A stretch of DNA of 40,081 bases from the NCBI GenBank assembly GCA_947379895.1, contig CANCPA010000013.1, positions 1 through 40,081 on the forward strand, written 5' to 3'. Each line of letters begins with the position of its first letter. The first letter of the stretch is position 1. The notes below the pieces were generated by a model, which saw only the letters and a program-made list of their open reading frames with translations, searched no databases and was not told where the DNA came from. Made by a program: the position numbers and the translations under genes. This DNA is from Chitinophagaceae bacterium (GTDB taxonomy: Bacteria; Bacteroidota; Bacteroidia; Chitinophagales; Chitinophagaceae). Below are positions 241-31,475 of this stretch, piece after piece.

Positions 241-268
241 TATAACCTATAACCTATTACCTACTACT
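241..268. repeat. Heptamer-period tandem repeat
   Basis: TATAACC, TATAACC, TATTACC and TACTACT follow one another with an exact 7-bp period. The same period is seen in the inverted repeats of the trp operon. No clear complementary arm lies beside this copy. Confidence 0.45.
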
Positions 269-381
269 TCCTAAGTCATTATTGACTAATTATTTCAAAT
301 GAAATCCTTGTGCCCATTGATTTTCGTAGATTACTTTGTGTTAAATCCTCCTATGTAGTAAGTTTTTTTTATCTTGCCGCC

Positions 382-17308: not shown

Positions 17309-17371
17309 ATGAAACAGATTTCTAAAAATACTAATTGGTGGTGGCACACAAACCTTGAGAGGGGCTTGTAA
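17309..17371 (+). CDS. trpL: trp leader peptide
   Basis: A 20-residue leader peptide, MKQISKNTNWWWHTNLERGL, with three consecutive Trp codons (17336-17344). Its only role is to sense charged tRNA-Trp through ribosome position. The stop at 17369-17371 lies just past the sequence GAGAGGGGCTT (17357-17367). That sequence can pair with the 5' arm of the downstream terminator. The gene is too short for normal gene calling. Confidence 0.9.
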   Translation: MKQISKNTNWWWHTNLERGL

Positions 17372-17436
17372 TGGCATTGCCAATACATTTTCATATAATT
17401 GAAAAGAGCCTCGACATATAGTCGGGGTTTTTTTTT
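17309..17436 (+). promoter_or_regulatory. trp attenuator leader (Bacteroid-trp-like)
   Basis: A transcription attenuator. The terminator is CCTCGAC (17409-17415), loop ATATA, GTCGGGG (17421-17427) and a nine-T run. The competing pairing is GAGG (17359-17362) with CCTC (17409-17412) and CTT (17365-17367) with AAG (17404-17406), with small hairpins between (TGGC/GCCA at 17372-17382). A ribosome stalled at the Trp codons leaves GAGG free, so the terminator cannot form. A ribosome that reaches the stop covers GAGG, so transcription ends. This fits the described Bacteroid-trp RNA class. Confidence 0.88.
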
Positions 17437-17444
17437 GGGTAAAA

Positions 17445-17521
17445 GTCTCAAACAACATAAAATTACAAGTTTCTAGTTACAAGTTGCAATTACATGAAAC
17501 CTGAAACTTGAATCCTGAGAC
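17445..17521. repeat. Heptamer-period inverted repeat before trpE
   Basis: Successive 7-mers ACAAGTT, TCTAGTT, ACAAGTT, GCAATTA (17465-17492) are followed by GAAACCT, GAAACTT, GAATCCT (17496-17516). CAAGTTTC (17466-17473) pairs with GAAACTTG (17503-17510), and GTCTCA (17445-17450) pairs with TGAGAC (17516-17521). It lies between the attenuator and trpE. Confidence 0.7.
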
Positions 17522-17548
17522 AAATAACTGGTAACATTAAATTAGATT

Positions 17549-18988
17549 ATGAATAAAATTAAAATTACAACAACTATCAAAAAAATGCTTGCAGATGTTT
17601 ATACACCTGTAGGGATTTATTTAAGAGTACGGGACAGATTTAGAGATACTATTTTATTGGAAAGCACTGATAATCATGTGGCTGAAAATAGCTATAGTTT
17701 TATTGGAATTCATGCAATAGCTGGTATCGAAATTACTGATACGGGTAGCATTGAATTTAAACTGCCCGCTCAAGAACCTGAAAGAATTGCAATTACTAAC
17801 ACAAAAGCCGTTCCTGATGAAGTATGGGCTTTTATGAATCGGTTTCATATTACTAATCAGGAAGATAAGGCAGGTAATAGTCGGGATGAAGCTGCTGCAA
17901 AGTTTGCACAAGGACTCTTTGGTTACACAACTTATGATGCTGTACAATTCTTCGATTCTGTTTCTTTCTCTACACACGATACGCCTAAACCTGTAATTCC
18001 ATTAATGCGCTATCGTTTGTATCAATATGTGATTGCTATTAATCATTTTAAGGATGAATTGTATTTGTGTGAAAATGTAATTGATGGTTTACCAAGTGAG
18101 GCACAAGTAGTTGAAAGCTTGATTAAGAGTAAAGATGTGCCTACTTACCCATTTGCCATTAAGGGTGAAGAAACTTCAAATATTACAGACGAAGCTTATG
18201 TAGAAATGGTAAAGAAAGGCATTCAAAGTTGTTTTAGGGGAGATGTCTTTCAAATTGTTTTAAGCCGTCGTTTCCAACAAGGCTTCACAGGTGATGAATT
18301 GAATGTTTATCGTGCCCTAAGGAATATCAATCCGTCTCCTTATCTGTTTTATTTTGATTATGGAGATTATAAATTAATGGGTTCTTCTCCCGAAAGTCAA
18401 CTGATAATCAACAAGGGGATTGCTGTTGTTCATCCTATTGCAGGAACTGTTAAGCGTACAGGCAATGATAAATTAGATGCTGAGGCCACCGACAAATTAT
18501 TGATTGACCCTAAAGAAAATTCAGAACATGTGATGTTAGTAGACCTTGCCCGTAATGATTTAAGTAGAGTTTGTGATAATGTTTTTGTGAAAAGTTACAG
18601 AGAAGTGCAATATTATAGTCATGTAATTCACTTAGTAAGTGAAGTAAATGCTACTGTCCGACCAAATAGTAATCCTTTTGAATTATTGGCAAAAACATTT
18701 CCTGCGGGTACTTTGAGTGGGGCACCGAAGATTAAGGCCATGCAGTTAATTGATAAATACGAAACTACTTCACGTAGTTTTTATGGTGGTGGCATCGGAT
18801 TTATGGGATTTGATGGTACTTGTAATCATGCAATAATGATTCGTACTATATTAAGTAAAAATAATACGTTATTCTATCAAGCAGGTGGTGGGATTGTTGC
18901 CGCAAGTCATCCTGAAGGCGAATTTCAAGAAGTTAGAAATAAATTAAATGCCCTGAAAAAGGCTATTGAAGCGGCAAAAGAAATATGA
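17549..18988 (+). CDS. trpE: Anthranilate synthase component I
   Basis: Converts chorismate to anthranilate with ammonia from TrpG, the first committed step to tryptophan. The 479-residue protein has the N-terminal regulatory domain with TILLEST (about residues 30-36). This matches the LLES motif that binds feedback-inhibiting tryptophan. The chorismate-binding domain has HPIAGTVKRTG, DPKENSEHVMLVDLARNDLSR, FPAGTLSGAPK and the late GGGIVAAS. It is a full-length TrpE rather than PabB, supported by the LLES motif and the operon. It is the first structural gene after the attenuator. The gap to trpG (177 bp) holds a fold-back repeat. Confidence 0.95.
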   Translation: MNKIKITTTIKKMLADVYTPVGIYLRVRDRFRDTILLESTDNHVAENSYSFIGIHAIAGIEITDTGSIEFKLPAQEPERIAITNTKAVPDEVWAFMNRFHITNQEDKAGNSRDEAAAKFAQGLFGYTTYDAVQFFDSVSFSTHDTPKPVIPLMRYRLYQYVIAINHFKDELYLCENVIDGLPSEAQVVESLIKSKDVPTYPFAIKGEETSNITDEAYVEMVKKGIQSCFRGDVFQIVLSRRFQQGFTGDELNVYRALRNINPSPYLFYFDYGDYKLMGSSPESQLIINKGIAVVHPIAGTVKRTGNDKLDAEATDKLLIDPKENSEHVMLVDLARNDLSRVCDNVFVKSYREVQYYSHVIHLVSEVNATVRPNSNPFELLAKTFPAGTLSGAPKIKAMQLIDKYETTSRSFYGGGIGFMGFDGTCNHAIMIRTILSKNNTLFYQAGGGIVAASHPEGEFQEVRNKLNALKKAIEAAKEI

Positions 18989-18991
18989 TAA

Positions 18992-19133
18992 AGGTTTGAG
19001 GTATAAGGTATAGGGTTGAAAATTTCTAAATAAGGGTTTTTAAAATTTTGTAATTTTTAAATTACGGTGGAAAAGAAAGATAAAAAGCTTGGTAATCGAC
19101 CTTAAACCCTATACCTTAAGCCCTTAACCTGCA
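18992..19133. repeat. Heptamer-period inverted repeat between trpE and trpG
   Basis: Left arm AGGTTTG, AGGTATA, AGGTATA, GGGTTGA (18992-19019). Right arm ACCTTAA, ACCCTAT, ACCTTAA, GCCCTTA, ACCTGCA (19099-19133). Fourteen bases at 19004-19017 pair perfectly with 19105-19118. Both arms keep an exact 7-bp period. Confidence 0.8.
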
Positions 19134-19165
19134 TTAAGATTAATCAACTATTATAAAATTAAGAG

Positions 19166-19852
19166 ATGGAAAATATAAAAGCTTCAGTTCAAGGTGGTTT
19201 TGATGGTTTAAAGATATTGGTTTTTGACAACTACGATTCTTTTACCTATAACTTGGTTCATTTAGTAGAAAAAATTACACATATAAAGGTAGATGTATAT
19301 CGTAATGATGAAATTCCTTTGGAAGATATAAATAGATATAACAAGATTATTCTCTCTCCAGGTCCTGGAATACCTGAAGAGGCAGGGTTATTGTTGCCTT
19401 TGATTAAACAATATGCTCCGACAAAGTCTATTTTGGGGGTATGTCTTGGGCATCAGGCAATTGGTCAGGCTTTTGGTGGAAATTTGACAAATCTGACTTC
19501 TGTTTATCATGGAATTGCAACGCCCGTAAAGGTGAGTAGTGAGTTGTTAGAAGTGAGTAGAGGTAATTCTTTACCACTCACCACTCACCACTCACCACTC
19601 ACCACTCGACACTCACTTTTTGCTGGGTTAGGAGAGGAGTTTATTGTAGGTCGTTATCATAGTTGGGTGGTTAGTGATGAAGGGTTTCCTGATAGTTTGG
19701 AAGTTACTGCCCGTGAAGAACACAATTTTATCATGGCTTTACAACATAAAACATTCGATGTGCAAGGTGTTCAGTTTCATCCTGAAAGTGTGTTAACTCC
19801 TTGTGGAGAAACGATTATGAGAAATTGGCTCACTCAGAGTTATGAAAGATGA
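19166..19852 (+). CDS. trpG: Anthranilate synthase component II, with internal repeat insertion
   Basis: The glutamine amidotransferase subunit that feeds ammonia to TrpE. The 228-residue protein has ILVFDNYDSFTYNLVH near the N terminus, SPGPGIPEEAG, the nucleophile motif GVCLGHQAIG and the GVQFHPESVLT His-Glu pair. All catalytic residues are present. Odd features are a 15-residue N-terminal extension before the usual KILVFDNYDS start, and an in-frame insertion at about residues 122-151 (VSSELLEV...TTRHSLF). The insertion is encoded by a heptamer-period inverted repeat (19531-19614). In ordinary TrpG the GIATPVKV strand runs within a few residues into LFAGL, so some 25 residues are extra. The insertion lies in a surface loop region, so the enzyme is probably active. 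Confidence 0.93.
   Translation: MENIKASVQGGFDGLKILVFDNYDSFTYNLVHLVEKITHIKVDVYRNDEIPLEDINRYNKIILSPGPGIPEEAGLLLPLIKQYAPTKSILGVCLGHQAIGQAFGGNLTNLTSVYHGIATPVKVSSELLEVSRGNSLPLTTHHSPLTTRHSLFAGLGEEFIVGRYHSWVVSDEGFPDSLEVTAREEHNFIMALQHKTFDVQGVQFHPESVLTPCGETIMRNWLTQSYER
19531..19614. repeat. Heptamer-period inverted repeat inside trpG
   Basis: Left arm GGTGAGT, AGTGAGT, TGTTAGA, AGTGAGT (19531-19558). Right arm five copies of ACCACTC (19573-19607) plus GACACTC (19608-19614). The arms are largely complementary. Total length keeps the reading frame, so the repeat is translated. Confidence 0.85.
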
Positions 19853-19917
19853 GTCGAAAGGCATAATTTTTATTTTTTAATCATTAATTAAAATTTCCCC
19901 CTTTAGGGGATAGGGGT

Positions 19918-20910
19918 ATGAAAAAGATTTTACAATTTCTATTCGAGCATAAAACGCTCTCTTATCAACAGGCAAAGGAAGTGTTAATTGGCATTGGTAG
20001 TGGAACATATAACGAACATGAGATTACTTCATTCGTTACTGTTTATTTAATGCGAAGTATAACTATCAATGAGTTGCAAGGTTTTCGTGATGCCTTACTC
20101 GAATTGTCTGTAAAGGTGGATTTGGGTAATCATAAGTTAATGGATATTGTAGGTACAGGAGGGGATGGTAAAAATTCCTTCAACATTTCTACACTTAGTT
20201 GTTTTATTGTAGCAGGTGCAGGACAAAAAGTTGCAAAACATGGTAATTATGGGGCATCATCTATCAGTGGTGCTAGTAATGTGATGGAACAATTGGGTTA
20301 TTGTTTCAAAAATGATAACGACAAATTAAAGAAAGAAGTAGAACAGGCAGGGATTTGTTTTCTTCATGCTCCTCTATTTCATCCAGCTTTGAAAGCAGTC
20401 GGACAAATTAGGAGGAATTTGGGTGTGCGAACTTTCTTTAATATGTTAGGGCCGATGGTTAATCCTGCATCACCAACCTATCAATTAGTGGGTGTTTATA
20501 ATTTAGAAATGGCTCGGATATATAATTATCTCTTACAACAGACAGAGAGGTCGTTTACTATCATTCATAGTCTTGATGGATATGATGAAATATCGCTTAC
20601 AAATGATACAAAAGTTATTACAAACAAAGGAGAGAGTATTAAATCTCCCATTCAATTAGGCAAGAGAGTTGTTGCACCTCAAGATATTTATGGTGGAAAT
20701 ACAGTAGAAGAGTCCGCACAATTGTTCCATTCTATTATTAGTGGAGAGGGAACTGAGGCACAAAATGCAGTGGTTTTGGCAAATTCTGCAATGGCTTTGT
20801 ATTGTACAGGTAACTATGCTAGTTATGAGGAAGCATTTCAGACGGCTGTAAAAAGTTTAGAAAGTAAGGCAGCTTTAAATGCATTAGAAAAGCTAATTGC
20901 TTTGCAATAG
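19918..20910 (+). CDS. trpD: Anthranilate phosphoribosyltransferase
   Basis: Attaches phosphoribose from PRPP to anthranilate. The 330-residue protein carries the PRPP-binding loop DIVGTGGDGKNSFNIST (about residues 77-93), KHGNYGASSISGASNVMEQLG (Lys-His and anthranilate-contact region) and RRNLGVRTFFNMLGPMVNP (about residues 162-180). The family is dimeric and cytosolic. Length and order of motifs are normal. It is not fused to trpG, unlike in enterobacteria. It lies 65 bp after trpG and is followed by an unusual 405-bp gap with a 21-bp tandem array before trpC. Confidence 0.95.
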   Translation: MKKILQFLFEHKTLSYQQAKEVLIGIGSGTYNEHEITSFVTVYLMRSITINELQGFRDALLELSVKVDLGNHKLMDIVGTGGDGKNSFNISTLSCFIVAGAGQKVAKHGNYGASSISGASNVMEQLGYCFKNDNDKLKKEVEQAGICFLHAPLFHPALKAVGQIRRNLGVRTFFNMLGPMVNPASPTYQLVGVYNLEMARIYNYLLQQTERSFTIIHSLDGYDEISLTNDTKVITNKGESIKSPIQLGKRVVAPQDIYGGNTVEESAQLFHSIISGEGTEAQNAVVLANSAMALYCTGNYASYEEAFQTAVKSLESKAALNALEKLIALQ

Positions 20911-20972
20911 ACTTTTTGTGATTGATTAAAAAGTTCTTTCAATTAGGTAAACACTATTTTTCTTGTTGTAAT

Positions 20973-21225
20973 GAAAATTATTTTCATTGCAAAAGGAATA
21001 GTTTTTATCATAATAGAACAAATTTATTTTGTAGTGGAAATGATTTCTGTCACAAAGGAAATGGTTTCTATCACAAAGGAAATAATTTCTGTTACAAAGG
21101 AAATGGTTTCTGTCACAAAGGGAATAATTTCTGTTACAAAGGAAATGATTTCTGTTCTGATGAAAATGTGTTTTGTTCTGATGAAAATGAGTTCTGTCAC
21201 AATAGAAAACTGTTTTATAATCAAA
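20973..21225. repeat. Array of twelve 21-bp units built from two palindromes
   Basis: The gap between trpD and trpC consists of about twelve direct units (one of 22 bp, the rest 21 bp). The central five (21037-21141) are near identical. Each unit is GAAATnATTTC (an 11-bp dyad) followed by TGTnACA (a 7-bp dyad) and AAG. Since 21 is a multiple of three, several frames on both strands stay open and read as heptapeptide repeats. The two-dyad structure explains why both strands look alike. The 21-bp period equals two turns of B-DNA. It is not a CRISPR: there are no spacers. Confidence 0.85.
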
Positions 21226-21315
21226 AATTGGTGACTTATTTTTGATCATATTCCTTAATTGAAATACTGAAATATCTTTATTGCAAGAAGTATATTAAAT
21301 AATAATTAATTAGAA

Positions 21316-22116
21316 ATGAATATTTTAGAGAAGATAGTTGCATATAAAAAATTAGAAGTTGAAGAAGCAAAAGCATTGAGAAGTGTTGCTGAATTAAAAG
21401 CAATGCCTTTATTTTCAATACCCTGTTTGTCTTTAACTGCCTTCTTATTAGATGAATCCAAAACGGGCATCATTGCTGAGTATAAACGTCAGTCTCCTTC
21501 AAAAGGAGTTATTAACAATACGTCAACAGTAAAAGAGGTTACAAATGCTTATGCACAAAATGGGGCATCAGGTATCTCTATATTAACAGATAATCATTTC
21601 TTTGGGGGTAGTTTAGTCGATTTATTGGATGCAAGAGAAGCGACTCTTAATAAAGTTCCTTTGTTAAGAAAGGACTTTATGATCGATGAATACCAAATTT
21701 TTGAGGCAAAGGCTTATGGGGCATCGGTTATTTTGTTGATAGCTGCTTGTTTATCACCCGAAAAAGTGAAAGAATTGGCTATTTTAGCAAAAAGTATTGG
21801 TCTAGAAGTGTTATTAGAGATACATAATGAGGATGAATTGATACACATTTGTGACGAAGTGGATTTAGTAGGGGTAAATAACCGAAATTTGAAAGATTTT
21901 GTGGTAAATGTAGAGGCATCAGCACAATTAATTCAAAAAATGCCTAAAAATAAGGTAGCTGTTGCAGAAAGTGGTATCAATAATACGGATACAATAGTAT
22001 TTTTACGCAAAGCAGGTTTCAAAGGATTCCTAATTGGGGAACACTTTATGAAACAATCCGACCCAACGATTGCTTTTGCTAATTTTGTAAATGAATTGAA
22101 CACAAAAGGACGCTAA
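21316..22116 (+). CDS. trpC: Indole-3-glycerol phosphate synthase
   Basis: Closes the indole ring from CdRP, the fourth step of tryptophan synthesis. The 266-residue TIM barrel has IIAEYKRQSPSKGVI (catalytic Lys in strand 1, about residues 52-66), ISILTDNHFFGGS, PLLRKDFMIDEYQI, GVNNRNLKDF (about residues 191-200) and AESGI. Length is normal for a monofunctional TrpC. The trpF gene follows 11 bases later, so these two are tightly coupled. Confidence 0.95.
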   Translation: MNILEKIVAYKKLEVEEAKALRSVAELKAMPLFSIPCLSLTAFLLDESKTGIIAEYKRQSPSKGVINNTSTVKEVTNAYAQNGASGISILTDNHFFGGSLVDLLDAREATLNKVPLLRKDFMIDEYQIFEAKAYGASVILLIAACLSPEKVKELAILAKSIGLEVLLEIHNEDELIHICDEVDLVGVNNRNLKDFVVNVEASAQLIQKMPKNKVAVAESGINNTDTIVFLRKAGFKGFLIGEHFMKQSDPTIAFANFVNELNTKGR

Positions 22117-22127
22117 ATCAAACGCAC

Positions 22128-22763
22128 ATGAGAATAAAAGTTTGTGGGATGACTGATGTTGACCAAGTGAAACAACTTGATGAGATGGGGGTAGAGTTTT
22201 GTGGCTTTATATTCTATCCTAAAAGCCCACGCTTTGTTTTCAAGTACATGCCCGCCATTAATATAAAAAAGATTAAGGGAAACATTAATAAAGTAGGAGT
22301 TTTTGTTAATGCACCTAGCGAAGAAATATTACAGACCGTAGATAGTTGCGGATTATATCTTGTACAATTACATGGTGACGAGAGTCCTAAAGCCTGCGAA
22401 AAAATATCAGATTATATTTCAGTCATCAAGGCTTTTAGATTGGCAGAAGATGATAATATCCTTTGGAAAATAAAGGATTACAAGGAAGTGGTAGATATGT
22501 TTTTATTTGATACTGAAGGAGTAGGTTATGGAGGCACAGGGAAAAAGTTTAATTGGGATGCCTTGTTAGGATTAGATATAGACAAGCCTTTTTTTCTGAG
22601 TGGAGGTATTCAACCCGACGATATCCCTGCATTAAGGACATTTAGTATGGACCCTGTCGCAAAGGATTTGTTCTCAATTGATGTTAATAGTCGTTTTGAA
22701 ATTTCTCCAGGTGTAAAGGATATGGAAAAGGTAGGGAAGTTTGTAAAGGAGTTAAAGGGATAA
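22128..22763 (+). CDS. trpF: Phosphoribosylanthranilate isomerase
   Basis: Isomerises phosphoribosylanthranilate to CdRP, the third step. The 211-residue TIM barrel begins with the family signature IKVCGMTDVDQV (catalytic Cys at residue 6). It has GFIFYPKSPRFV, VGVFVNA, VQLHGDES, the FDTEG catalytic Asp region with GYGGTGKKFNW, and FLSGGIQPDDI. It is 11 bp downstream of trpC. It is followed by a heptamer-period inverted repeat and then a gene unrelated to tryptophan. Confidence 0.95.
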   Translation: MRIKVCGMTDVDQVKQLDEMGVEFCGFIFYPKSPRFVFKYMPAINIKKIKGNINKVGVFVNAPSEEILQTVDSCGLYLVQLHGDESPKACEKISDYISVIKAFRLAEDDNILWKIKDYKEVVDMFLFDTEGVGYGGTGKKFNWDALLGLDIDKPFFLSGGIQPDDIPALRTFSMDPVAKDLFSIDVNSRFEISPGVKDMEKVGKFVKELKG

Positions 22764-22774
22764 AAAAAGTAACA

Positions 22775-22837
22775 GGTTGCTAGTTTCAAGTTACAAATAC
22801 TTACGACTTTTAACTTGAAACTATTGACTTGATACTT
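22775..22837. repeat. Heptamer-period inverted repeat after trpF
   Basis: Nine contiguous 7-bp units from GGTTGCT to GATACTT. Thirteen bases at 22781-22793 (TAGTTTCAAGTTA) are perfectly complementary to 22811-22823, with a 17-base loop. This could be a processing site, terminator or stabilising stem, but there is no T tract. Confidence 0.85.
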
Positions 22838-22854
22838 GTATTTGAAAGAAAAGA

Positions 22855-24153
22855 ATGAAGCAAATTGTAGTAATATTATTTTTGTTATTCACTTTGAAGT
22901 TAACCACTTCAGGACAGTCACGTGTCCTGAAAGGAACATTAACTGCACAGCCAAATACAAGTACCACAATACTTCCCAATATCGTTGTTTCTAAAACCCT
23001 TGAACTTCAGAAACAAGATTCAGCATTGTTTAATCCTAGATATGTACCCCCACTTCTCATAGATAGTTCTAATATGGGTACAATTTCAAGTACTAATGCT
23101 GATTTTAATCGTCAAAATAATGAACAAAACCAGCAATTAAGTATTGATGCAAATAAAGGAGGCTCTTCATTAACACCTACTTTGAGTTTTGGAAGAAATA
23201 GACAAACAAATCAAACTACTGAGACTGTTTATAAATATAAAACACCTGATGCCAAACCAATTATTGATAATGTTGAAGTCGAAAATCCAAATACTCCTTC
23301 TCCTAGTTTTCATTATAATCCAAAAGGAACTGCCAATAAGAAAGTAACATTAAAGCAAAATAATACAGGAACTAGTGGAGGGCTTGTTACCGATCCTACA
23401 GATTTGGCTGCTAGTAATAACTATGGCAATACTACAACTGTAAGCAAATGGCATCCTAAAAAGTCAAATGCTACTACATCATGGAAGAAATCAACTACAC
23501 AAGCCGGAGGGAATGTAGGTGTAAATAGTACTGTTAATCCTCAAATCAAAAAGCAAGTGCTGCAATATAAAATTGCAGAAAATAACAATACACAATCAAA
23601 AGGAATTCCTAACAACAATTCGTTGACCCCTACAATAAGGACAAATAATCAACCTTCTCAAATTGAGAATAATAACAAATTGTCAACTCCGAACGTTAAT
23701 ACAAGTAATACTTCTAATCAAGCTCAAGAACAACAAAATGTTTCGAGTGTAAGACCAGAATATAAAATAAATCTTGGTGCTGATGGGAAATTTACTGTAT
23801 CATTTTTTAATAATGGAGGGAGTATAGTTTTAACTCAGTTTGGAAGAATCGCAGGTGTTACAATGCCTACAACAGGGGGAAATGTCACACCTCAATATAA
23901 CTATCGTGGATTGTTAGAGAGTGTGGGAAATTTGCCCATTCAGTATACTTATGAGGGTAGGGTGCAATCTGTTGGAAGTACAAGTTTAGGATATAATTAT
24001 AATGGTAATATACAATCGATTGGTAACACACAACTAGTTTATAATTACAACGGCACTATTGATAAAATAGGAAATACGAATGTAAATTACGATGCAAATG
24101 GAAATGTAAGTGGCACAAGTGGTGCAAATCCTGTAATTGCAATGAAACAGTAA
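22855..24153 (+). CDS. Secreted Asn/Gln/Thr-rich protein with C-terminal YNYNG repeats
   Basis: A 432-residue exported protein of no recognised function, placed inside the trp operon between trpF and trpB. Residues 1 to about 20 form a signal peptide ending in TSGQ. The central 270 residues are low complexity, rich in Asn, Thr, Gln and Ser, and probably disordered. The C-terminal 100 residues contain at least four copies of a module of about 18 residues. Examples are PQYNYRGLLESVGNLPI, YTYEGRVQSVGSTSL, YNYNGNIQSIGNTQL and YNYNGTIDKIGNTNV, which suggest a small beta-repeat surface like YD/RHS-type strands. Similar repeats occur in flavobacterial secreted proteins as I recall them. Nothing links it to tryptophan. 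It may simply be cotranscribed or have been inserted. Confidence 0.75.
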   Translation: MKQIVVILFLLFTLKLTTSGQSRVLKGTLTAQPNTSTTILPNIVVSKTLELQKQDSALFNPRYVPPLLIDSSNMGTISSTNADFNRQNNEQNQQLSIDANKGGSSLTPTLSFGRNRQTNQTTETVYKYKTPDAKPIIDNVEVENPNTPSPSFHYNPKGTANKKVTLKQNNTGTSGGLVTDPTDLAASNNYGNTTTVSKWHPKKSNATTSWKKSTTQAGGNVGVNSTVNPQIKKQVLQYKIAENNNTQSKGIPNNNSLTPTIRTNNQPSQIENNNKLSTPNVNTSNTSNQAQEQQNVSSVRPEYKINLGADGKFTVSFFNNGGSIVLTQFGRIAGVTMPTTGGNVTPQYNYRGLLESVGNLPIQYTYEGRVQSVGSTSLGYNYNGNIQSIGNTQLVYNYNGTIDKIGNTNVNYDANGNVSGTSGANPVIAMKQ

Positions 24154-24209
24154 GGGTTACTAATTGATAAAAGTAATTATTAATTGATATTGTTAGTTAT
24201 TAGAATAAG

Positions 24210-25439
24210 ATGTTAATGAATAGATATATGAGTGAATTGACAGAAGTAGAGCAAGTAGTAGGATATCAAAATCCGAATGAACATGGTTATTATGGAAGTT
24301 TTGGGGGGGCCTATATACCCGAAATGTTGCAAAGAAATGTTGCAGAACTTAAGGAGAGTTACCTTAAAATAATGGAAGAGGAGTCGTTTCAACAAGAGTT
24401 TCAGATGTTGTTAAAAGATTATGTAGGTCGTCCAACACCTTTATTCTATGCAGAACGGTTAAGTGAAGAATTAGGTTCCAATATCTATCTAAAAAGAGAA
24501 GACCTGTGTCACACAGGGGCTCATAAGATAAACAATACAATCGGGCAAATTTTATTGGCGAGAAGACTTGGTAAAACAAGAATCATTGCCGAAACAGGTG
24601 CGGGTCAACATGGAGTGGCTACTGCTACAGTTTGTGCTTTAAAAGGTATGGAATGTATCGTATACATGGGCGAAAAGGACATTGAAAGGCAAGCTCCAAA
24701 TGTAGCCCGGATGCAATTGTTAGGAGCAACCGTAATTCCCGCATTGAGTGGAAGCAAAACCCTTAAAGATGCTACGAATGAAGCAATAAGGGATTGGATT
24801 AATAATCCAGTAGATACACATTATATAATTGGGAGTGTGGTAGGACCGCATCCTTATCCTGATATGGTCGCTCGTTTTCAAAGTGTAATCAGTCAGGAAA
24901 TTAGGGCACAGCTTTTAGAAAAGACAGGAAGTGAATTACCTACTCATGTGGTGGCTTGTGTTGGAGGAGGTAGTAATGCAGCAGGTGCTTTCTACCATTA
25001 TTTAAATGAATTAAGTGTTCAGTTAGTGGCAGTTGAGGCAGCAGGACATGGAGTTAATTCGGGCATGAGTGCTGCCACAACTCAATTGGGAAAATCAGGG
25101 GTATTACATGGAAGTAAAAGTTTGGTAATGCAAACAGAAGATGGACAGGTTATTGAGCCACATAGTATTTCCGCAGGTTTGGATTATCCAGGAATTGGAC
25201 CTTTACATGCACATCTTTTCAAGAGTGGAAGGGGCTTGTTTTTGAGTGCTACAGATGATGAGGCATTGGAATCGGTATTTCATTTGTCCAAAATAGAAGG
25301 TATTATCCCTGCATTAGAATCGGCACATGCTTTTGCTGCATTAAAGACTTTGGGTTTAACTAAAAAAGATGTAGTAGTGGTCTGTTTAAGTGGGAGAGGG
25401 GATAAGGATTTGGCAACCTATATGAAGGCAATGAAATAA
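24210..25439 (+). CDS. trpB: Tryptophan synthase beta chain
   Basis: PLP enzyme that condenses indole with serine to give tryptophan, in complex with TrpA. The 409-residue protein has [13 protein letters not shown] near the start, [15 protein letters not shown], the PLP-lysine motif [24 protein letters not shown], the phosphate loop VGGGSNAAG and the late CLSGRGDKD. This is TrpB1-type, the standard partner of TrpA. Start could be ATG 24210 or 24228 (MSELTEVEQ), and the second is close to many homologues. It is separated from trpA by a large fold-back repeat. Confidence 0.95.
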
Positions 25440-25445
25440 TTATAG

Positions 25446-25542
25446 TTATTAGTGGTTAGTTGTTAGTTATAAGTTATAAGTGGTAATACCATTTTAAAAC
25501 CTAACCCCTAACCCCTAATAACTAACAACTAACAACTAATAA
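25446..25542. repeat. Heptamer-period inverted repeat between trpB and trpA
   Basis: Left arm TTAGTGG, TTAGTTG, TTAGTTA, TAAGTTA, TAAGTGG (25449-25483). Right arm CCTAACC, CCTAACC, CCTAATA, ACTAACA, ACTAACA, ACTAATA (25500-25541). Bases 25446-25470 pair with 25518-25542 at 24 of 25 positions, forming a very stable stem within the operon. Confidence 0.9.
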
Positions 25543-25547
25543 TTAAG

Positions 25548-30113: not shown

Positions 30114-31475
30114 ATGAAGAAATTTTATGTTTTCCTGTTTATGATTGCTTTCGTGAGTAATGTTTTTTCTCAGGAAGTTAGTGTTAAAAAGGCTCCAGCT
30201 TTTGGTGGATCAATTGGACTTAAGGATTTTCCAACTGCAGCTAAGATGTTTAGTTTGAATTCTGTTGGATGGAGTGGGTATTTGGCACCATCTATTAATG
30301 GTTTTTATATTAAAGGATTGGACAATCATTTTGATTTCTTAGCTTCATTAGGGTTGTCATGGTCAAAATATAAGGATTATTCCGGTCATTTCTATTATGA
30401 GGATGGGTATAGAACTACTAAAGGAATTCCCAAATTACTTATTGATGCAGGTGGAGCTGTAAATTATAAGTTTACAACAGATGTAAATAATGTTGTTCCT
30501 TACCTTTCGGGTGGATTGACTTTATCATTATATAATGGTTCTTATGTATTTCCAAGCATACCTGTGGGCGGTGGTCTACAAGTTAAATTAGATAATGGGG
30601 CATTTATATATATTCAGACGTTATTACAGTTAGGAGTACTTAGTAATACAATTTCAAATTCTAACCAAAATGCAACGAAAGAGAATCTGAACTATTCCAT
30701 TGGTTTTTCTATGCCTTTGAAAAAGACAGTAAAGGCTCTTCCGGTTAAGAAAGAAGTTGTAGTTCCAGTTGTAGTTGTTGATACTGATAGTGATGGGATT
30801 CCTGATAATTTAGATAAATGTCCTACAGTTGCGGGCTATGCTAAATATAAAGGGTGTCCTGTTCCGGATACTGATAGTGATGGTATCAATGATGAACAAG
30901 ATTCTTGTATTAAAGTTCCAGGATTAGCAAAATATCATGGTTGTCCAATTCCTGATACAGATAAGGATGGTGTTAATGATGAGCAAGATTCTTGTATTAA
31001 AGTTCCAGGATTAGCAAAATATCATGGTTGCCCAATTCCTGATTCTGATGGCGATGGTATAAATGATGAAGAAGATAAATGTCCTCGTGAACTAGGTACT
31101 GCTGAAAATCATGGTTGTCCTGAAATTCAGACTAAAATAAATGAACTAGCAAAAAGCATTTATTTCAATCCTGGAAGTGCAGTTATAGCTGCAAAAGCTT
31201 ATCCTGTTTTAGAGCAAGTTATTGGACTTATGACTAAATATCCTGGATTTAAACTTGAAATAGAAGGTCATACAGATAATTTGGGTGCTCCAGTAGGGAA
31301 TCAAAAAATATCTCAAAAGAGAGCTGACGCAATAAAAAGTTATTTTGTTGGAAAGGGAATTGCAGAAGACAGATTATATTCTATTGGTTATGGATTAGAA
31401 AAGCCAATAGCAAGCAATAAAACTGCTTCTGGTCGTGCTTTGAATAGGAGAGTAGAGTTACATGCAAAATACTAA
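30114..31475 (+). CDS. OmpA-family outer-membrane protein with TSP3 repeats
   Basis: A 453-residue envelope protein. A signal peptide (residues 1-19, ending VFSQ) is followed by a beta-barrel-like domain (to about residue 205). Then come four calcium-binding thrombospondin type-3 repeats (DTDSDGIPDNLDKCP and similar, about residues 222-335). The C-terminal OmpA domain (about residues 340-453) has SIYFNPGSAVI and EIEGHTDNLG, which anchor to peptidoglycan. Two of the TSP3 units are almost identical at DNA level (period 87 bp). It is a single gene with a strong terminator, divergent from the XRE-S24 regulator. The role is probably structural, linking outer membrane and peptidoglycan. Confidence 0.92.
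   Translation: MKKFYVFLFMIAFVSNVFSQEVSVKKAPAFGGSIGLKDFPTAAKMFSLNSVGWSGYLAPSINGFYIKGLDNHFDFLASLGLSWSKYKDYSGHFYYEDGYRTTKGIPKLLIDAGGAVNYKFTTDVNNVVPYLSGGLTLSLYNGSYVFPSIPVGGGLQVKLDNGAFIYIQTLLQLGVLSNTISNSNQNATKENLNYSIGFSMPLKKTVKALPVKKEVVVPVVVVDTDSDGIPDNLDKCPTVAGYAKYKGCPVPDTDSDGINDEQDSCIKVPGLAKYHGCPIPDTDKDGVNDEQDSCIKVPGLAKYHGCPIPDSDGDGINDEEDKCPRELGTAENHGCPEIQTKINELAKSIYFNPGSAVIAAKAYPVLEQVIGLMTKYPGFKLEIEGHTDNLGAPVGNQKISQKRADAIKSYFVGKGIAEDRLYSIGYGLEKPIASNKTASGRALNRRVELHAKY

Follow-up and report, generated by a model that had tools for sequence, protein, structure and literature searches.

Heptamer fold-backs, which consist of two arrays of 7-nt units lying as inverted copies of each other, recur in the trp operon of a Chitinophagaceae bacterium. 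The window analyzed here, contig C13 (40,081 nt) of its 5.32-Mb draft genome in 401 contigs, contains five such sites among the trp genes. Our analyses revealed that the same layout, built from varied units, is found at many sites across this genome and its family, as well as in further families of Bacteroidota. Hence, as the sequence-only reading of this stretch had proposed, it is the design rather than a sequence that recurs. The sequence comparisons described below suggest, with a probability that we put at roughly 0.55, that the fold-backs are short-period arrays at gene borders that evolve at the DNA level, with DNA copying keeping the two arms matched.

Fold-backs in the trp operon

The sequence-only reading had described fold-backs with an exact heptamer period at five sites (Table 1; the trp gene names are those of that reading, with a family-model check for trpF alone). 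All five are present and four are clear fold-backs with a 7-bp period, but the site before trpE is weak, with a predicted RNA fold z score of −1.5 and 17 of 200 shuffles folding equally well. The exact period holds for the spacing, whereas the units themselves are degenerate. The trpE–trpG fold-back forms 23 of 29 pairs between arms 81 nt apart (z = −4.1), that within the trpG coding sequence 23 of 28 (lag-7 score of 30; z = −5.7) and that between trpF and the next open reading frame (ORF) 24 of 30 (z = −4.8). For the trpB–trpA gap, recomputation returned the stem originally reported, with 24 of 25 pairs between positions 25446-25470 and 25518-25542; its 42-nt arms pair at 81%, and the predicted RNA fold of −34.1 kcal/mol (z = −6.6) was matched by 0 of 200 shuffles. 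Confining the pattern to the trp operon was too strong, as arrays occur genome-wide. A trp-specific feature was rejected, the intergenic array density being 0.93 per kb in the trp span versus 0.58 per kb outside it (trpG loci), a mild excess.

Abundance and period

Within 440,081 bases of this genome, 26 arrays were found at lag 7 (23 of them intergenic), whereas three dinucleotide shuffles averaged 0.67. The other lags from 4 to 22 yielded 0 to 3 arrays, except lag 14, with 25, and lag 21, with 32. In the whole genome, a four-unit RGTT pattern with period 7 gave 158 matches versus 10 for the reversed pattern, overlapping matches included, and the period-8 version gave 0. The analysis was extended to 111 loci from this genome and its relatives (1.93 Mb), which contain 244 inverted repeats with a score of at least 14 compared to 7 in shuffles, a set that is not independent because the congeners and three Pinibacter-group loci have some orthologous fold-backs in common. 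The arms were periodic in 109 inverted repeats, 79 with period 7 and 14 with period 8; periods 4, 5, 6, 9, 10 and 11 had 1 to 7 each. Both the arrays and the inverted repeats are therefore far commoner than expected from base composition. A 50-kb stretch of Escherichia coli K-12 contained 0 lag-7 arrays.

The RGTT period-7 pattern was matched in 222 of 395 Bacteroidota genomes and the period-8 pattern in 22 of 118, pattern counts that are not equivalent to fold-back counts. The reversed-pattern control, which in turn describes heptamer arrays built from different units, was usually lower but in some genomes higher (G033, 80 reversed versus 2; G419, 118 versus 21). Period-7 and period-8 matches numbered 41 and 48 in G016, 7 and 74 in G171, and 86 and 33 in G154. 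Samples of 80 kb contained fold-backs with periods of 7 to 9 in G016, G154 and G221, no period-7 fold-back in G158 (54 RGTT matches) and no fold-back in G141 (354 RGTT matches, partly from long direct arrays). The preferred period thus differs by lineage.

Borders, polarity and paired arms

The G-rich arm comes first in 62 of 79 period-7 fold-backs, versus 39 of 90 aperiodic ones, and in 91 of the 105 fold-backs of an enlarged set, including 23 of 25 in convergent gaps. As a palindrome is identical on both strands, this order is not tied to the direction of transcription. The median distance of arrays to the 3′ border was 2.5 in this genome, 3.0 in two Pinibacter-group genomes and −4, an overlap with the ORF end, in other loci. 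In the same three sets, 21 of 22, 68 of 81 and 56 of 76 oriented arrays had their G-rich strand directed away from the gene, with 4, 37 and 36 unoriented arrays left out of the count; two 20-kb loci belong to both the second and the third set. Five additional genomes showed a weaker polarity (15 of 23), which neither the G141 arrays (0 of 3) nor the period-8 arrays of G154 (0 of 3) followed. Sixty-six period-7 fold-backs are intergenic, 45 of them in codirectional, 16 in convergent and 4 in divergent gaps and 1 at an edge. The 61 codirectional and convergent fold-backs begin a median of 5 nt after the left border and end 11 nt before the right.

Arms within a gap belong together. In gaps with two arrays, the inverted match between the arms had median scores of 20.25, 22.5 and 14 in three sets, versus 6, 7.5 and 8 with the arms of other gaps, and 0 of 500 permutations in each set reached the observed sum. 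An arm's own partner was nonetheless its single best match in only 6 of 24, 6 of 23 and 2 of 9 gaps, since unit families are common to many gaps. Each genome has several such families, many of them without G-runs (AATTAAT, AAAAGTC, TTGAAAA).

Turnover between related species

The expectation that the same gaps would vary among relatives was borne out, with orthologous gaps holding other units, or no array, from one species to the next. The genus is represented by twelve genomes. By eye, the trpE–trpG gap carries AAGGTAT-type units in the window, ACGTTTT in G006 and AAGGCAT in L006; others have GAGTTAT arrays without a second arm, and G008 and G011 have none. The trpB–trpA gap, also by eye, has TAGTTGT-type units in the window and in G009, where each arm is one 7-bp unit shorter, and other heptamer fold-backs in G010 and G004. 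Heptamers precede trpE in the window, G006 and L002, none do so in G007, and G004 and L004 have CACAAAG-type repeats of ∼8 nt there (by eye). The gap behind trpF has, by eye, AAGTTNC-type units in the window and a GTTAGTK-type fold-back in the sister species G009, despite 98% identity of the TrpB proteins. In G008, G011 and G012, trpC and trpF share 4 bp, whereas in five other relatives' loci they are separated by 116 to 147 bp that include a fold-back of ∼8-nt period. CACAAAG/CTTTGTG repeats with ∼8-nt period were seen before trpE in L134 and L004 and between trpC and trpF in L132-L135 and L004; their A/C-rich arm comes first, the reverse of the heptamer order.

A comparison of 85 orthologous gaps was possible between two Pinibacter-group genomes, whose 135.8-kb alignment shows 88.9% identity. 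Arrays were present in both genomes in 29 gaps and in one genome only in 3 and 6. Among the alignments listed, several gaps had changed unit family in both arms, and gap 83, its flanks conserved, had a period of 8 in one genome and of 7 in the other. Loop orientation was compared in 15 orthologous loops. The loop of gap 75 is inverted between the two genomes (inverted score of 76 versus direct score of 32), and that of gap 61 is inverted by eye, with automatic scores of only 8 versus 4; gap 115, flagged on weak scores of 11 versus 6, was left out of the inversion count.

Several other repeats accompany the arrays. In L148-L165 (G448, G449), REP-like palindromes interrupt heptamer arrays in one species that are uninterrupted in the other (gaps 50, 80 and 111, by eye), and palindromes of the GTAGGGGCGAAT type adjoin arrays. 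In the same Pinibacter-group loci, 8 of the 13 occurrences of CTTTCTGTG come immediately behind an array, the arrays belonging to different families, and the sequence is possibly a shared array junction. A MITE-like inverted repeat, AACCCAGATTACGCAATAG ... CTATTGCGTAATCTGGGTT, with arms ∼140-160 bp apart, recurs in L117, L118, L128, L129 and L130, and another inverted repeat, bounded by ACTCAGG ... CCTGAGT and containing ACCACTAGG/CACAAAG, recurs in L113 and L130.

In-frame arrays in trpG

One fold-back lies in frame within trpG. We placed 75 of 81 trpG sequences by motif (L030, L039, L051, L061, L068 and L077 were dropped). The stretch of the product between the YHG and GRYH motifs is 19 to 61 residues long. 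In 32 of the 75 genes it holds a lag-7 array with a score of at least 10, and about ten or more unit types are represented by eye; no arrays were found there at lags 6, 8 or 9. Because so many trpG genes have a heptamer array in this one loop, the site in the window is one case of a recurrent position. The presence of the same fold-back design within translated trpG supports evolution at the DNA level.

DNA-level or RNA-level maintenance

Selection acting on the transcript to keep the arms paired would be expected to leave more G-U than A-C mismatches on the transcribed strand. The 74 codirectional fold-backs contain 45 G-U and 49 A-C mismatches, a strand-symmetric result (P = 0.76) that would have a probability of 1e-4 were G-U tolerated twice as often as A-C. 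As a positive control, 37 short T-tailed hairpins from the same sequences, with T counted outside the stem only, gave 22 G-U versus 1 A-C (Fisher P = 1e-5 compared to the fold-backs). None of the ten matches listed in a terminator scan lies inside a fold-back, and the fold-backs differ from intrinsic terminators, which combine a stem and T-run with pairing kept by G-U. A role in mRNA processing or differential stability, suggested by the sequence-only reading, is thus unsupported by the mismatch counts, and a secondary effect of the fold-backs on mRNA may be compatible with the data. In 17 orthologous fold-backs, changes on both sides that kept pairing numbered 22, compared to 7.7 expected. 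Loop inversion is predicted if inverted arms recombine or switch templates, and not under selection on RNA. The lack of a G-U excess together with the two inverted loops between sister species therefore favors DNA-level copying over selection for RNA hairpins.

Features of the window

The nearest matches of the TrpG protein are Chitinophagaceae records, the best at 87% identity. Between trpF and trpB lies an ORF of 432 aa (22855-24153) with no role assigned, and a related ORF starts at the same position 3′ of trpF in several congeners. Upstream of trpE (∼17310-17432), a short ORF that resembles a leader and contains three consecutive Trp codons is followed by a GC hairpin and a T-run; the short ORF and hairpin are kept in relatives (by eye) and look like a trp attenuator. 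An Rfam search of the window returned one tRNA and nothing else. An 87-bp tandem repeat of 2.7 copies lies within an ORF (30843-31076). A second repeat class consists of tandem arrays of exactly 21 bp, in the trpD–trpC gap (20992-21197) and at 2322-2410; several congeners have their own 21-bp unit in the trpD–trpC gap, and the class also occurs in L112, L114, L115, L116, L126 and L130. By lag from 15 to 49, arrays numbered 10 at period 21, 11 at 42, one each at 30 and 41, and 0 at other lags.

Table 1. Heptamer arrays and associated trp genes in the window
Feature	Position	Strand	Details
Lone unpaired heptamer array (TATAACC type), upstream of ORF at 310	241..273	.	Lag-7 score 16
Weak heptamer fold-back (AAGTTNC type), leader terminator–trpE	17466..17510	.	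Arms 17466-17484 / 17492-17510; score 9
Heptamer fold-back, trpE–trpG (AAGGTAT type)	18992..19130	.	Arms 18992-19020 / 19102-19130
trpG ORF, host of in-frame array	19166..19852	+	228-aa ORF; relatives 63-87% identical
Heptamer fold-back within trpG coding sequence (GAGTGGT / ACCACTC), in-frame	19531..19616	.	
trpF ORF	22128..22763	+	PF00697 (PRAI) match 22137-22748, E 2.5e-39
Heptamer fold-back, trpF–next ORF (AAGTTNC type)	22767..22837	.	Arms 22767-22796 / 22808-22837
Heptamer fold-back, trpB–trpA (TAGTTGT type)	25443..25545	.	Arms 25443-25484 / 25504-25545

Discussion

How might DNA copying generate and maintain these fold-backs? We envisage that replication slippage would lengthen and shorten arrays in 7-nt steps and that the two inverted arrays of one gap would copy each other, through either template switching at the hairpin or recombination of one arm with the other. 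Such copying would keep the arms complementary, alter both together and sometimes flip the loop. Quasi-palindrome correction is a known type of mutation, to which the mutual copying of arms may be likened. Ectopic copying could carry unit families between loci, and intergenic gaps, along with one tolerant loop of the TrpG protein, would be the places where array DNA survives. The RNA hairpin would then be a by-product, with RNA pairing not what preserves the arm match. The initial suggestion of a process that would write heptamers together with their complement holds in part: the arms act as DNA-level copies of each other, but no writer was found, and ordinary slippage plus template switching may suffice without one.

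Several observations weigh against DNA-level copying. Slippage alone leaves the preference for 7 (8 in some genomes) and the polarity unaccounted for. Unit order common to loci is only moderately above shuffles, with 23 pairs versus a shuffle mean of 14.9 and maximum of 24 in one genome and 113 pairs versus 67 and a maximum of 98 in a second. The unit family of gap 37 changed in the left arm only. The 17 orthologous fold-backs also contain 48 one-sided changes and 10 double changes that broke pairs, so arm correction is incomplete, and the double changes that kept pairing could stem from selection for pairing. Between species the arms differ by 13.8% and the loops by 40%, a loop value that includes misaligned and inverted loops, and this difference is readable as constraint on the arms. 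Finally, aperiodic long inverted repeats also lack a G-U excess (26 G-U, 36 A-C, in a tally that counted two 20-kb loci twice), so the mismatch test separates terminators from DNA repeats rather than one kind of DNA repeat from another.

Alternatively, the fold-backs could be RNA hairpins selected to stabilize or process mRNA between cistrons or to end transcripts. The stable RNA stems predicted at four trp sites, the excess of compensatory-type changes and the scarcity of fold-backs in divergent gaps (4 of 65 placed fold-backs versus 162 of 979 background gaps of at least 50 bp) fit this proposal, as does the finding, in the accessible part of Rehm et al. 2015 (PMC4692102), that Xanthomonas transcripts start or stop at repeats capable of forming G-quadruplexes more often than at control repeats. 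We nevertheless consider it unlikely, given the balanced G-U and A-C counts, the absence of listed terminator matches from fold-backs, the instance inside translated trpG in many relatives, and inverted loops and wholesale unit switches for which RNA offers no reason. A rather less likely proposal is that arrays act as three-frame stop cassettes, in which a stop-containing unit repeated every 7 nt places stops in all frames behind a gene and selects sense arrays after stop codons. Three-frame stops within 28 nt are indeed present on the G-rich strand of 19 of 23 arrays in this genome and 65 of 82 in the two Pinibacter-group genomes, compared to 8 of 23 and 30 of 82 on the opposite strand and 5 of 23 and 20 of 82 with shuffled letters, and periods 7 and 8 both shift the frame. 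Yet this proposal leaves unexplained the arrays before start codons, the copying of arms and the non-use of periods 4, 5, 10 and 11; moreover, the units AAGTTNC, AAAAGTC and the Xanthomonas GGGAATC contain no stop on reading the unit, and the trpG arrays are translated through. Three-frame stops may select part of the pattern.

It is more doubtful still that the arrays are terminal inverted repeats of a transposase-moved element family of the MITE or REP type. In support of this proposal, the inserts are gains, as at trpC–trpF, where loci with a fold-back have an insert relative to the overlapping genes of three congeners, and Pinibacter-group arrays of several families end at the one junction CTTTCTGTG. 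However, arm units vary by locus, and loops are mostly locus-specific and may contain a native terminator (by eye). G086, G139 and G059 have 26, 33 and 14 period-7 pattern matches and no Y1_Tnp, the REP-associated transposase family tested here, whereas G106, G121 and G064 have Y1_Tnp and no pattern matches. RAYT/Y1_Tnp as a necessary driver was rejected on the basis of these array-rich genomes. A long shot, finally, is a dedicated system that writes arrays with a lineage-set ruler (7 nt here; 7 and 8 elsewhere) and a free unit, places an inverted copy at the other border of the gap and marks the edges of genes in much of Bacteroidota, with the G-rich heptamers of Xanthomonas and Nostoc a one-unit special case. 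If such a writer did exist, G-quadruplex formation would not be the reason for the latter.

Whichever process operates, a positional and structural rule for intergenic DNA persists while the sequence is free to change, which separates the layout from explanations that require a particular unit, for example G-quadruplexes or the binding of a sequence-specific protein. The reason for 7 becomes directly testable with species pairs that offer hundreds of arrays, unit switches and loop inversions. The G-U versus A-C count is a simple test of strand asymmetry that may distinguish DNA-maintained from RNA-maintained palindromes elsewhere.

Comparison with known systems

Cyanobacterial STRR heptamers are tandem heptamers in intergenic DNA; to our knowledge, fold-back pairing and free choice of unit form no part of their description. 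REP/BIME elements, which depend on RAYT transposases, are short intergenic palindromes behind genes, and REPs have a conserved sequence and a tag. The arrays described here have neither, and the presence of Y1_Tnp does not track them. MITEs have conserved terminal repeats and target-site duplications; the arms of the present fold-backs vary by locus.

Judging by titles and the starts of abstracts, searches of the open-license PMC literature listed no paper concerned with variable-unit heptamer fold-backs in Bacteroidota. That nothing like them is in print was too strong, given a very similar layout in Xanthomonas (PMC4692102) and heptamers in five Bacteroidetes (PMC4679880), as far as the accessible parts of both papers go. 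In the latter, MacGregor 2015 describes direct repeats of TAACTGA in Beggiatoaceae, Cyanobacteria and five Bacteroidetes, found for the most part immediately ahead of gene starts. The Maribeggiatoa draft genome has 169 sets of them plus a single indirect repeat, and other heptamers are noted in two Bacteroidetes; the array is absent from the same gap in some relatives. As described in that part, these repeats resemble the arrays here in being intergenic heptamers near gene borders and differ in their one fixed unit and direct orientation. Several unit families per genome set the present arrays apart from TAACTGA and STRR repeats alike.

The closest published case is the G-rich heptamers of Rehm et al. 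2015 (PMC4692102), GGGAATC in Xanthomonas and GGGGA(C/T)T in Nostoc, read as G-quadruplexes. In the accessible part of that paper, each genome has one unit type with G-runs and a preference for four units; the repeats are dispersed, mostly intergenic and scarce between divergent genes. Close inverted pairs number 70 and 75 in the two genomes of Xanthomonas and are few in Nostoc. Two species have 83% of contexts in common, with variation in length and sequence. Rehm et al. cite a hypothesis of Mrazek that 7 nt is the stretch within the polymerase active site (PMC4692102), an idea that alone gives no lineage-dependent period. The arrays here share with these repeats the dominance of period 7 (period 8 is also common in some genomes), a G-rich strand that is sense after stops and antisense before starts near the border, and close inverted pairs that are scarce in divergent gaps (4 of 66 here). 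Unlike them, they comprise many unit families per genome, many lacking G-runs, and undergo family switches and loop inversions between species, which set them apart from the Xanthomonas and Nostoc repeats as that part describes them. What is new here is the free unit, the arms that share a family, family switching, loop inversion, the in-frame trpG site and the G-U test.

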